Positions 59,223 through 64,000 of a DNA stretch of 64,000 nucleotides are shown here, in pieces. Each line of letters starts with the position of its first letter. Position 1 is the stretch's first letter. The stretch comes from Candidatus Sericytochromatia bacterium (lineage in GTDB: Bacteria; Cyanobacteriota; Sericytochromatia; UBA7694; JACMQJ01), in NCBI GenBank assembly GCA_026004035.1, contig BPII01000002.1, positions 62,001 to 126,000 of the forward strand, in the 5' to 3' direction. The translations under genes and the position numbers were made by a program. The notes under the pieces are model-generated. The model did no database searches. It had not been told where the DNA came from and saw only the letters and a list, made by a program, of their open reading frames with translations.

Positions 59223-62200
59223 TTAATAAATTTTTTGAAAATTAGCTTTTTTCTCATTTTTATCAGGTTTAACTTTAATAACAACTACTGTTATATCATC
59301 TTGAGGTTCCTTTACTCCTTTTATCCAATTATAATAATCTTCAAGTATTGCATTTTTTAGTTCTTCAGCTGATAAAAAACTATTTATTTTTATGAATTCT
59401 TCTAATCTTTCATAAGAATATTCTTCATTATCTATATTTCTAGCTTCTACAAGTCCATCAGTAAAATATACTAAAATATCTTTATGATTTAAACTTAATG
59501 TTGTTTCTCTAAATTTAACATTTTCTTTTACTCCTAATTGATAAGCAGGAATAACTTTTATATTTTCTAAATCTCTTATTTCATGTTTATAAAAGTAAGG
59601 TAAAGGATGTCCAGCTGATGAAATTGTAAATTTCATCTCATTTAAATCAAATATTGTATATAGAAATCCCATTCTTAATTTTCTATCCGTTTTTGTTCCT
59701 AGAATAACACTATTTAAAGCATTCATAACAGATGTAACACTAGGGTCATTTTTAGATTGTAAAAATAAGGTAGCTTTAGCCATTGTCATTAAAAGCCCTG
59801 CTGATACTCCATGTCCTGTTACATCTCCAAAAGCAAGAGCAAATTTATTATCGCCAAGCATTATATAATCATAGTAATCACCGCCTACTTCACTAGCTGA
59901 TTCAGAGAAACCTGAAATTTCTATTGGATCAAAAACAGGATCTGAAACAGGTAACATTGATTTTTGAATATTTTTAGCAATGTTTAATTCTTGTCTTATC
60001 TGTTCTTCTCTTCTTTGAACTTCTAATAACTCTAAATTATCTAATGCTAAAGCTGTTTGTGTAACAATATCTTCTAGTAGTTCTAGATCTTTGTTTGTAA
60101 AAGATTTTACAAGAGTTTTACTACTAACATAAACAAGTCCTAATATTTTTTTATTTGATATAAGTGGAACACACATTACACTTCTTATGTCAAGAGCCAT
60201 TACACTAGCCTGTGTGCTTATTGATTTATCGTCTAATGTATCTACTAATGAGATAGATTTTCCTGTGTCAATAACTTTTTGAATAATACTTGAGCTTATT
60301 CTTAGTGGTATATCTGTATTTCCATTTGAATCAAGACTTAATTCACATTTTAAATCTTCACCCATTAATACATATCCTATTTCAGCACCTGTTATTTTCA
60401 AAGAAAAGTCTAATACTTTATATAATAAATCTTTCTTTGTAAAAGCATTTGATATAGTTCTTGATAAATCATTTAATATTTGTAATTTCATATTTTTATC
60501 GTTTGTTTGAGTATGTAATCTTGCATTTATTATTGCAATACTTGCAAATCCTGAAATAGATTCTACTAAATTTAAATCTTCTTCACTAAAAGTTTTTAAA
60601 ACTGATTGTCTATCTAAATAAATAAGTCCAAAAGTTTTATCTTTATCTTTCAAGGGAACACAAATAACAGTTCTTAAATCCATAGCTAAAACACTTTTTT
60701 GAGTAGAAAATCTACTATCAGCTTGAGCATCAGCAACCCAAAGTGATTTACCTGTTTTTAAAACTTCTTCTGTAAAAGTTCTACTAAATGCTAAAAGTTT
60801 ATTTTCTCCAAAACTTCCTTCCTTTGTTTTAAATATTTGTGAATGTAATTCACCTTTATGATTTAAAAGTAGTAAAAAACCTCTATCAGCTTCTGTTATT
60901 TCCATTATTTTTTCTATAATAGTATTTAAAACACTATTTAACTCTAAATTACTCATTAACATTTGACCAAAATTACTTATAAATTCAAGTCTTTTTAGTC
61001 TTTCATGCATTATTTTATTTTCTTTTTTAATTTCTTCTTTTTCTTTATCTGATATTTCATTTTTAGTTGAACTATTAATACTTAATCCTAATGTAGAGAT
61101 TAAATCTATTAATTTAAGACCTATTTGAGTTGCTTTTTCATATTCTTTTGGTAATTCACTTTTTTCAATTTCTTTATTTTCAATTTTGCTTATTGTTTCT
61201 TCTTGTTTTTTTGTTGAAGGAATATCTTTTACAATAAGTGATGGTTTAGGTATAGAATTAAGTCTAGGGAGTATTTTATTTACTTGATATTCATTATTTA
61301 TTTCTCTAAATTTTGATATTGCTTTCTGCCATGATGTTCTTGCTAAATCAAATTTTTTCTTTTGTAACCATATTTCACCTATTGAAAATTGTGTAAAAGC
61401 TTCTTGTATATACATTTCATTTTCTTGAGCTATATTTAAGCTTTTCATTAAAAAATCATGTGCTTTTTCATAATCTTCTCTATGTGAATATATTTGAGCA
61501 TATAGTCTATAAGTATTTGTTAAATGATATGGATTTTCAAAATCCTTACTATTAGCTAATTGGTAAGATCTATTCAGATATCTTTCAGCATCTTCTATTT
61601 CATGCATTTTTATATATGCTTCAGCAAGTCTATATAGTGAAGGTATTAATTGATCATTTTTTAAATTTCCATCATCAAATTGACTTAAACTTACTGCTTT
61701 TTGTAATAACTCAACTGCTTCAATAAATTTGTTTTCTTCAATTAATATCATAGCCTCAAGTATTAACCCATTAGCTTGTTGATGTGGATTACCAAGTCTC
61801 TTACCTAGTTCTACAATTTTTTTTGTCATAAATTTTGCTTCCATAAATTGACCATTTTGTATAGCTGCAAAAGTCAGACAAATATTAAATCTATTTTCAT
61901 GTTGAATAGGTTTTCCCATTCTTTTAACCATATTCATTAATTTTTCTTGTAAATTTTTTATTTTTTCGTAATTACCTATAAGACTATATCTAACAACATC
62001 TGGATAATATGACCAAAATTCTAAATCTAAATGATTATATTCTTTTGCAATTTGATTTAAAATTTTAAAATATTTTGAATTATTATCTAATTTTTCACCA
62101 AGCCAAGCTATAGCATCTTCTCTTATAAAAGAGCTAAAACCATAAGCCCATATTAAATGTTTCGGTAATTTATCAAAGTTTTTTTCCATTATATCCACTG

Positions 62201-64000
62201 CTTCTTCCATATCTTTTACTAATTGTCTAAGTCTTCCTGTAGTAAGAAGACCATTTAATCTTCCAAAAAGCATAAGAGCTCTTACTAGAGTATTATTAAA
62301 ACTAGTATTCTCTATTATTGGATTTGTAATTGAAAAAGCTTTTTCATTTTGTCCCATCATTGTATAACTTGAAGCTCTTATGCTTTCAAATTCAGCAGTT
62401 GAATTAATATCAAATCCTTTTGATTTTAAATAATTTATTAAATTTTCTGAAGTATCAAGACATATTTTAGGTGCAATCATGTAACTTATCCAAGCTAATT
62501 TTCTATAAGATTTTTCCAAAACTAATTCTTTAGAAACTTCTTGATCTATTTCTGAATTATTTAAGATTATTGATAAATATTCTTTTAAATTTTCTGTTGA
62601 AATATTTTCTTCTTTTTCTAATAAATCATTTGCTTGTTTTATTAATTGTGATGCTTCCATTCTTACAGGAGAAGAAAAACCAGCTATAAATAAATATTTT
62701 ATAGCTTTCTGAATATTTGTACTTTTACTATAATGATAAGCTAATTCACCAGCTACATTAACTAAATTATTTATATTTTCATTTTCTATAGTTTGAGCAA
62801 CTTTTAAATGTAGTTCTTTTCGTAAATTTTCATCTAATCCATCATAAAGAGTTTCTCTAACTCTATCATGAGGAAATATATATTCATTTTCAAATTTATT
62901 TAAAAATTGTCTTTCTATTAATTCATCTATTGCATTAAATATTTCTTCTTCTTCATAATTGCTTACAGCTTTAAATAATGAAAGTTTTAATTTTCTTCCA
63001 GCAACAGCAGCAAGTTTTATTAAATTTAAAGATTTTTCACTTAAAGTTTTAAGTCGTCTTGTTACAGTTGCTTCTATACTATTTGGTAATTCCCAATTTG
63101 TATAATCTGTTGGTATAAACCAAGTACCAAATCTTAATTGTAAAATATTTTCTTCTATAAGAAATCTCATTAATTCACTTATAAAAAAAGCGTTACCACC
63201 TGTTGCGTCTTTTATTTTTTCTACAAAATCTTTTTTTAAATCAATACTTCCAAGCATTGCTTTTATAAGCTCTTTTATATTTTCTAAAGTAAAAGGTTCT
63301 AGTTTTATTAAATTTGTTATTTCTTCGTCTATTGTCTGCCATAGTGGATGTCCTGCTTGAACTTCATCATCTCTAAATGTAGCAAGAAACATTATTCTTG
63401 ATTTCTTTAAGTCTCTTATACAAGTATTTAATAAATCAATACTTGCTTGATCTATCCAGTGTAAATCATCTATAAATATAACTATAGTTTCTCTGCTTGA
63501 TATACTAGATAACCAAGCTGTAATAGTATCAAAAAGTCTTAATTTTTCTGATATACCTTTAAGATTTGGTAGTGGTTCAAATCCTTTCTCCTTTAATTCA
63601 GGTATTATTTTTACTAAAATATTGCCGTATTTTTCTAACTCTTCTTTTGATGTTAAAGGTATTAATTGTTTTAGTGCATCAGCTATTGGTTTATATGCTG
63701 ACATACCTTGTTCAAAACAATGACCAGTTACAAAAGGAATCTCTGCTAATTGAACATGTAATTTAAACTCTTGAATAAGTCTTGATTTTCCAACACCAGC
63801 AGGAGCACCTATAAATACAGCTTTACTATACGATTTATTAACTTGATTTAAAGCATTTTCAAGTATCTTTAACTCATTATCTCTACCTATTATTAAACTA
63901 CTATTTAGATAACTTTTTTTTTGTTCTATATTTTCTATAGCTATTTCTTCATTTGTTAATTCAGATAAATCTTTTATTAATTCAGAACAATTTTGATATC
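59223..64000 (-). CDS. Giant AAA ATPase-TPR-GAF-GAF-PP2C signalling protein (5' end outside window)
   Basis: At least 1592 residues are open up to the right edge; the N-terminus lies beyond. Order from the edge: Walker A GAPAGVGKSRL near 65, Walker B TIVIFIDDLHWIDQASIDLL, an AAA/STAND-type ATPase with TVTRRLKTLSEKSLNL, TPR repeats (about 400-830), a GAF domain near 1033-1160 (EADRGFLLLLN, RTVICVPLKDKDKTFGLIYL), a second GAF (1187-1313), and a SpoIIE-type PP2C phosphatase from about 1337 (GDVTGHGVSAGLLMTMAKA, SSAGHPLPYFY, YFTDGLVEARN, DDITVVVIKV). The segment before the ATPase (CSELIKDLSELTNEE) resembles the linker after a Ser/Thr kinase domain. Confidence 0.85.
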   Translation of the reverse strand, partial: YQNCSELIKDLSELTNEEIAIENIEQKKSYLNSSLIIGRDNELKILENALNQVNKSYSKAVFIGAPAGVGKSRLIQEFKLHVQLAEIPFVTGHCFEQGMSAYKPIADALKQLIPLTSKEELEKYGNILVKIIPELKEKGFEPLPNLKGISEKLRLFDTITAWLSSISSRETIVIFIDDLHWIDQASIDLLNTCIRDLKKSRIMFLATFRDDEVQAGHPLWQTIDEEITNLIKLEPFTLENIKELIKAMLGSIDLKKDFVEKIKDATGGNAFFISELMRFLIEENILQLRFGTWFIPTDYTNWELPNSIEATVTRRLKTLSEKSLNLIKLAAVAGRKLKLSLFKAVSNYEEEEIFNAIDELIERQFLNKFENEYIFPHDRVRETLYDGLDENLRKELHLKVAQTIENENINNLVNVAGELAYHYSKSTNIQKAIKYLFIAGFSSPVRMEASQLIKQANDLLEKEENISTENLKEYLSIILNNSEIDQEVSKELVLEKSYRKLAWISYMIAPKICLDTSENLINYLKSKGFDINSTAEFESIRASSYTMMGQNEKAFSITNPIIENTSFNNTLVRALMLFGRLNGLLTTGRLRQLVKDMEEAVDIMEKNFDKLPKHLIWAYGFSSFIREDAIAWLGEKLDNNSKYFKILNQIAKEYNHLDLEFWSYYPDVVRYSLIGNYEKIKNLQEKLMNMVKRMGKPIQHENRFNICLTFAAIQNGQFMEAKFMTKKIVELGKRLGNPHQQANGLILEAMILIEENKFIEAVELLQKAVSLSQFDDGNLKNDQLIPSLYRLAEAYIKMHEIEDAERYLNRSYQLANSKDFENPYHLTNTYRLYAQIYSHREDYEKAHDFLMKSLNIAQENEMYIQEAFTQFSIGEIWLQKKKFDLARTSWQKAISKFREINNEYQVNKILPRLNSIPKPSLIVKDIPSTKKQEETISKIENKEIEKSELPKEYEKATQIGLKLIDLISTLGLSINSSTKNEISDKEKEEIKKENKIMHERLKRLEFISNFGQMLMSNLELNSVLNTIIEKIMEITEADRGFLLLLNHKGELHSQIFKTKEGSFGENKLLAFSRTFTEEVLKTGKSLWVADAQADSRFSTQKSVLAMDLRTVICVPLKDKDKTFGLIYLDRQSVLKTFSEEDLNLVESISGFASIAIINARLHTQTNDKNMKLQILNDLSRTISNAFTKKDLLYKVLDFSLKITGAEIGYVLMGEDLKCELSLDSNGNTDIPLRISSSIIQKVIDTGKSISLVDTLDDKSISTQASVMALDIRSVMCVPLISNKKILGLVYVSSKTLVKSFTNKDLELLEDIVTQTALALDNLELLEVQRREEQIRQELNIAKNIQKSMLPVSDPVFDPIEISGFSESASEVGGDYYDYIMLGDNKFALAFGDVTGHGVSAGLLMTMAKATLFLQSKNDPSVTSVMNALNSVILGTKTDRKLRMGFLYTIFDLNEMKFTISSAGHPLPYFYKHEIRDLENIKVIPAYQLGVKENVKFRETTLSLNHKDILVYFTDGLVEARNIDNEEYSYERLEEFIKINSFLSAEELKNAILEDYYNWIKGVKEPQDDITVVVIKVKPDKNEKKANFQKIY

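Follow-up and report, generated by a model that had tools for sequence, protein, structure and literature searches.

A Hanks-type kinase and a SpoIIE-type phosphatase in one chain: a multidomain signaling protein of Sericytochromatia with a putatively exchangeable output head

A gene of a member of “Candidatus Sericytochromatia,” a non-photosynthetic class of the Cyanobacteriota/Melainabacteria group, encodes a kinase, an ATPase, a TPR region, two GAF domains, and a SpoIIE-type phosphatase in one chain. Comparison with relatives showed, at the level of predicted domains, a kinase-AAA-TPR-GAF body (here, the chassis) whose C-terminal head is exchanged among HATPase/HisKA, GGDEF, SpoIIE, and none. 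The protein is of interest both for uniting a PPM phosphatase with a Hanks kinase in a single polypeptide and as part of what would be a natural head-swap series, wherein heads were exchanged behind the same kind of body within one phylum and the phosphatase was most likely gained separately.

The gene lies at the right edge of the window, i.e., the whole stretch of 64,000 nucleotides that was analyzed (G000:C2:62001-126000), in an assembly (G000) of 2.64 Mb in 46 contigs that is 75% complete and 4% contaminated. Within the window, it reads as a minus-strand frame of 1591 amino acids that stays open from the right edge down to its stop codon at 59223. On the same contig the frame runs 250 codons further, to an ATG start at G000:C2:126748, for a full ORF of 1841 amino acids (G000:C2:121223-126748, minus strand); the window part (59223..64000) holds codons 251 to 1841 and the stop, and the 5' part ends 748 bases past the edge. 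The original prediction, made from the window, had described an ATPase, a long TPR array, two GAF sensors, and a SpoIIE-type phosphatase in one chain of more than 1590 residues, and had suggested a Ser/Thr kinase domain beyond the edge, such that kinase and phosphatase would share one protein. Pfam matches in the 1591-amino-acid frame agreed with the former, and extending the sequence bore out the latter: rather than a start codon near the edge and no kinase domain, it revealed a Pkinase domain (residues 11-252; 166 bits against a cut-off of 31.7) in the same single ORF. The last codons of this Hanks-type domain fall inside the window (63993..64000), and the rest lies at G000:C2:126001-126718.

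The remaining domains, all on the minus strand and numbered by residues of the full protein, begin with an AAA_16 (STAND-like) ATPase (residues 287-452; 63393..63890; 80 bits) bearing the motifs GAPAGVGKS and IFIDDLHW. The predicted long TPR array was recovered in part: TPR matches (TPR_12 at 54 bits, and MalT-like TPR at 38 bits, below its own cut-off of 45) span only about residues 957-1141 (61326..61880), while residues 453-956 had no Pfam match at an E value of ≤0.001. Two GAF stretches (106 bits) follow, at residues 1270-1406 (60531..60941) and 1439-1571 (60036..60434). The linker into the phosphatase (59853..60035; the ELNIAKNIQKSMLP stretch), delimited by orthologue alignment, contains a long helix in a moderate-confidence model of the last 600 residues, where helix 331-356 of the modeled piece corresponds to residues 1572-1597 of the protein. 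The SpoIIE domain itself (PF07228; residues 1633-1826; 59271..59852) matched at 126 bits against a cut-off of 25, with VGGDYYD just ahead of the match and then GDVTGHG, SAGH, TDG, and DDIT. No match to PF00481 or PF13672, nor to HATPase or HisKA, was found in the fusion protein at an E value of ≤0.001.

Both enzymes appear intact. In an alignment of 45 chassis kinase domains (17 from SpoIIE-headed, 11 from GGDEF-headed, 14 from HATPase-headed, and 3 from headless proteins), the window kinase keeps the beta-3 Lys (K40), the alpha-C Glu (E59), the catalytic D131, N136, and the DFG Asp (D149); with all five key residues and a Pkinase match over the cut-off, it classes as a predicted Hanks-type Ser/Thr kinase. 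Of the kinase motifs expected past the edge, DFG was present (as MDFG), whereas an HCDIKPQN loop stands in place of HRDLKPxN. The protein is not of the RD subtype, which is not required of the family, as Cys130 precedes the catalytic Asp. The residue at that position was C, S, R, S, and A in five aligned orthologues and Arg in only 5 of the 45 chassis kinases, and because an Arg is not conserved there, kinase activation may be unusual. The beta-3 Lys, the catalytic-loop Asp and Asn, and the DFG Asp are kept in all 17 SpoIIE-headed kinases, among which the alpha-C Glu is replaced by Gln once (L164), the catalytic-loop Lys by Asn in 7, and DFG by DLG in 4 and DFS in 2. The same four core residues are kept in 11/11 GGDEF-headed and 13/14 HATPase-headed proteins; among GGDEF-headed, HATPase-headed, and headless kinases, only L007 has lost the Asp of the catalytic loop together with that of DFG. 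The best phmmer matches of the window kinase in the PDB were bacterial Ser/Thr kinases (4eqm, StkP, and PknB).

The head, with its PF07228 match and conserved Asps, likewise classes as a putative SpoIIE/RsbU-type PPM phosphatase. Every one of the 16 SpoIIE heads that could be aligned (that of L131, cut by a contig end, was left out) retains Asps 1624, 1642, 1764, 1817, and 1818, while His 1714 is kept only in the window protein and its four orthologues and is replaced in all 11 other heads. A regular-expression search had pointed to one fusion (L075) as lacking both DFG and the phosphatase motifs; this was discarded, as the alignment gave DLG and all five Asps, with other motif positions differing. 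The best PDB sequence matches of the head were Rv1364c (the best), Pseudomonas aeruginosa RssB, and SpoIIE. The monomer model of the GAF-GAF-SpoIIE piece (pLDDT 66, pTM 0.38) retrieved, in Foldseek, GAF-containing proteins, among them PDE5A and the cyanobacterial adenylyl cyclase 1ykd, while RssB, Rv1364c, and SpoIIE ranked lower; at moderate confidence, it supports the domain calls and little more.

Full-length, one-frame orthologues were found in four genomes of the same order (G004, G010, G018, and G038), and because they share the domain order at 43-46% identity, the layout lies well beyond chance. All four keep the catalytic residues of the three enzymes (kinase, ATPase, and phosphatase) unchanged. 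The window gene sits in DNA of 24-25% G+C versus 55% for the G018 orthologue, and the architecture has therefore outlived a large change in base composition. Excluding ORFs cut by contig ends, a one-frame fusion was confirmed in at least 6 of the 18 class genomes searched (the above, G000, and G029). The fusion is cut by contig ends in G050 and in G035, a genome of the same family whose halves (75% and 68-70% identity) lie at two contig ends, and in G007 and G016 the contig stops short of its N-terminal part. Among the matches listed, the other 8 of the 18 showed no fusion, and the stronger matches of G032, which belongs to the same order, comprised just a 912-amino-acid SpoIIE ORF. A search of the genome contigs returned 12 loci, 4 of them this protein (L081, L082, L084, and, in part, L083).

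Outside the class, kinase-AAA-GAF-SpoIIE proteins occur in at least 6 photosynthetic cyanobacterial genomes, as at least 9 ORFs (L153-L159, L164, and L165), in a sample of 386 genomes of the phylum; domains were assigned by Pfam in L153, L155, and L164 and by phmmer matches for kinase, AAA, and SpoIIE in the remainder. The same type of fusion was found in at least 1 genome (G517; L162) of 377 from the deltaproteobacterial phylum of G389. We label the 18 non-Sericytochromatia tree genomes as photosynthetic, or oxygenic, because all 18 had a Photo_RC match (PF00124) over the cut-off (that in G212 only via short pieces at two places); none was found in the 6 Sericytochromatia genomes, some of which are incomplete, or in G517.

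What relatives have in common is the kinase-AAA body, in most cases accompanied by TPR and GAF matches; they differ at their C-terminal ends. GGDEF heads were assigned by Pfam in L126, L127, L130, and L138 and by phmmer in L132, L133, L134, L135, L136, L137, and L141. HATPase or HisKA heads were found in L007, in L140 (where a receiver domain follows), and, by phmmer, in twelve photosynthetic cyanobacterial genomes, while L125, L128, and L129 are headless. L168, L173, and L178 matched none of the head probes, and other head types may therefore exist. The proteins that were read carry the kinase at the N terminus and the head toward the C terminus. The genome of the window encodes its own paralogue, a kinase-AAA-GAF-HATPase protein (L007:3400-8634; G000:C5) whose kinase, without the catalytic Asp and DFG, is likely a pseudokinase on the same chassis.

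How the phosphatase came to the chassis was addressed with two trees, both midpoint rooted, with some long branches and with sampling that followed search matches. The chassis tree (47 rows, 660 columns) contains a branch with 100/100 support: on one side stand only Sericytochromatia proteins (with SpoIIE, GGDEF, or no head), and on the other stand the cyanobacterial HATPase- and SpoIIE-headed proteins, two HATPase-headed Sericytochromatia proteins, and G517. The window protein is separated by this branch from all 14 HATPase-headed rows, including the two from its own class. The SpoIIE label changes 8 times on this tree, each change being a gain or a loss, and 5 of the changes are forced by well-supported branches. 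A single SpoIIE origin was rejected (AU test, P = 1e-70; 17 rows), also without L075, L131, and L162 (P = 2e-7; 14 rows). In a tree of the SpoIIE domain alone (40 rows), which carries a warning of long branches meeting, the six Sericytochromatia fusion heads form one clade (99/97) and the nine oxygenic heads another (99/96), and uniting the two was rejected (P = 0.005). The sister of the Sericytochromatia heads (95/88) is a SpoIIE protein from five genomes of the same order, considered nonfused by its ORF length (<1000 amino acids); its one scanned member (L113) has SpoIIE and a weak GAF match. Because of this sister grouping and the rejected joint clade, the phosphatase head was most likely gained locally in the lineage of the window protein and separately in oxygenic cyanobacteria, i.e., in at least two lineages. 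Within the latter, one kind of SpoIIE head sits on chassis that are interspersed with HATPase-headed ones, a pattern suggestive of later shuffling.

The SpoIIE/RsbU subtype is mostly known for action on STAS anti-anti-sigma proteins. A search for such partners, as the original prediction had proposed, returned, over the cut-off, a single match each for STAS and HATPase_c_2 in the genome, adjacent to one another on contig C3; three further HATPase_c_2 matches fell below the cut-off, and the STAS_2 family had no match. Such a pair does exist, although on another contig and unlinked to the fusion gene, so that the arrangement of a partner-switching module, a phosphatase encoded together with RsbW and STAS, is not seen. 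The C3 genes form a compact run (L066:4337-7235; G000:C3:156336-159234) of an RsbW-like ATPase, the STAS protein, a 165-amino-acid protein with no Pfam match, and a GAF-GAF-GGDEF protein, and this partner-switch pair is apparently tied to the diguanylate cyclase. When ORFs of at least 90 amino acids from the locus of the window gene (L006) and from that of the RsbW/STAS pair (L066) were compared with nine orthologue loci, which reach at most about 9 kb on each side and in several cases stop at contig ends, only the fusion itself matched (E ≤ 1e-5). The fusion gene thus appears to stand alone, without a conserved neighbor in the loci compared, and its substrate must therefore be sought in trans.

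Six SpoIIE-profile matches were found in the genome: that of the window, four on contigs between 5.7 and 37 kb long, and one in a PP2C gene on contig C4 that is followed directly by the gene of a Hanks kinase that bears an NHL-repeat propeller (L071:3556-6275). Two of the four are near duplicates on the small contigs C44 and C45 (L069 and L070), whose gene content is nearly the same and whose SpoIIE proteins agree at 631 of 664 positions; these contigs are either strain variants or contamination.

We favor, with about an even chance of being right, a soluble multi-input switch in which the chassis serves an exchangeable output head, the SpoIIE head acting on a STAS phosphoserine in trans. The AAA_16/TPR part and the GAF pair would respond to ligands or to partner proteins and would dimerize, and the signal would pass through the helical linker to switch the phosphatase, as reported for RsbU, in which a helical linker dimerizes the phosphatase domains (PMC12143880, accessible text). 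The same source predicts this arrangement for the tandem-GAF phosphatase RsbZ, and its authors hypothesize that sensor domains can be interchanged between effectors of the phosphatase, histidine kinase, and GGDEF types. The phosphatase would then remove phosphate from the phosphoserine of a STAS-type anti-anti-sigma protein, for which the best candidate is the sole STAS protein found (L066:4760-5116, on C3), with the adjacent RsbW-like ATPase as its presumptive kinase. This assignment is a guess by exclusion, since four other SpoIIE-type matches over the cut-off exist besides the C4 PP2C gene and no linkage was found, and other STAS proteins may be missing because of the incompleteness of the assembly. 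The N-terminal kinase may provide a second, separate output or input, by phosphorylating the chassis itself or other proteins, and would not be the enzyme that the phosphatase reverses.

The original prediction had instead set the phosphatase in opposition to the kinase. A self-resetting switch of this sort, in which both enzymes act on the same sites of the protein itself or of a bound substrate, is doubtful. It would fit the retention of core residues in fusions that apparently formed separately (four residues in 17/17 kinases, five Asps in 16/16 phosphatases), and Rv1364c sets a precedent, its phosphatase and kinase domains acting on the same STAS serine (PMC9138534, accessible text). However, the head is of the SpoIIE/RsbU rather than the PP2C type, and in the accessible text of PMC2887360 it is the PP2c type that can oppose Hanks-type kinases, which is not clear for SpoIIE-like phosphatases. 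The head slot, moreover, holds GGDEF, HATPase, or nothing in relatives, so that the kinase does not require a phosphatase, and the genome has the separate PP2C-kinase gene pair on C4. Opposition between the two enzymes is not supported by these observations.

A broader reading, which we consider rather unlikely as a whole, would make the chassis a universal sensor platform for any dimeric head (PPM phosphatase, histidine kinase, diguanylate cyclase, or adenylate cyclase) via one shared linker, with convergent fusion at least twice and both enzymes kept as a self-resetting switch. An intramolecular relay, whereby the kinase would phosphorylate the GAF/linker or phosphatase part and so tune the phosphatase as the only real output, is quite improbable: the N-terminal kinase and C-terminal-side head, and the core kinase residues kept with SpoIIE (17/17), GGDEF (11/11), and HATPase (13/14) heads alike, are in keeping with it, but the paralogue L007, in lacking the catalytic Asp and DFG, implies that at least that member can do without phosphotransfer. 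A spurious joining of two genes, whether an assembly artefact or a gene-fusion error, is conceivable in so fragmented and incomplete an assembly but carries almost no weight given the same one-frame architecture in G004, G010, G018, and G038 and 11 more ORFs of other genomes (L075, L153-L159, L164, L165, and L162).

Returning to the favored multi-input switch, its components are in part familiar: kinase and phosphatase in one chain is already known in other forms, SypE being a further case, and so is the dual Hanks/histidine kinase chassis. PrkC-PrpC systems are gene pairs of a kinase and a PP2C phosphatase; like the window protein they combine a Hanks kinase with a metal-dependent phosphatase, but as two proteins and with the PP2C subtype (PF00481/PF13672), whose profiles the fusion does not match. 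The C4 gene pair resembles this type. Similar in plan are the cyanobacterial cbSTKIII dual kinases (PMC2176072, accessible text), which share the N-terminal kinase, GAF, and C-terminal catalytic head but end in HisKA rather than SpoIIE, so that the window protein falls outside a class that combines Hanks kinase, GAF, and HisKA/HATPase in one chain. The HATPase-headed relatives examined have kinase, AAA_16, and GAF like the window protein and, judged by architecture, would be cbSTKIII members. That 2007 survey, which includes Tery_2857, a kinase carrying GAF and CYCc, uses neither “PP2C” nor “SpoIIE” in its main text. The TOMM system kinase/cyclase fusion family (TIGR03903) matched the kinase/AAA part (best stretch, 283-689) at 225.3 bits against a cut-off of 705.75 and by name has a cyclase head, not a phosphatase, on a body related to the chassis.

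Rv1364c of Mycobacterium tuberculosis also unites a kinase domain and a PPM phosphatase in a single polypeptide, but its kinase is RsbW-like (by the title of 3ke6) rather than Hanks-type, and it has its own STAS domain and PAS instead of GAF (PMC9138534, accessible text). A review of UniProt-annotated bifunctional kinases covers AceK, HPrK/P, and Rv1364c, none of which, as described in its accessible text, combines a Hanks kinase with a phosphatase of the SpoIIE type (PMC9138534). RsbU, RsbP, and Clostridioides difficile RsbZ likewise place a PPM head behind a helical linker, with tandem GAF domains in RsbZ, but the accessible text of PMC12143880 describes no kinase, ATPase, or TPR part in them. 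According to a 2025 survey, some PP2C phosphatases harbor kinase domains, the Pkinase-bearing ones primarily in Pseudomonadota (PMC12088040, accessible text); “AAA” and “GAF” are absent from its main text. In the literature searched, mostly open and without supplements, we found no published description of a kinase-AAA-TPR-GAF-SpoIIE protein or of a Hanks kinase-SpoIIE fusion, including in the accessible text of PMC12826048, PMC11863333, PMC6213207, and PMC2877116. Within that literature, the repeated origin of the protein was not found described either.

Several other signaling genes were encountered along the way. About 44 kb from the fusion gene, an FHA-GAF-adenylate/guanylate cyclase gene (L008:4271-5863; G000:C2:170270-171862) encodes a possible phosphothreonine reader. 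An 876-amino-acid ORF on contig C26 (L072:4431-7058) has two tandem Hanks kinase domains. Two further kinase domains are broken, one by five in-frame stops (G000:C15:19720-20475) and one split over two frames (C11:25527-26298), and are either decayed genes or assembly errors. Finally, L160, suggested by its length as a kinase fusion, was rejected on finding no kinase match; it is an FHA-GAF-SpoIIE protein of 2255 amino acids (L160:1152-7916; G690), with phosphatase relatives in two other genomes (L161, 2233 amino acids, and L163, 1315 amino acids).
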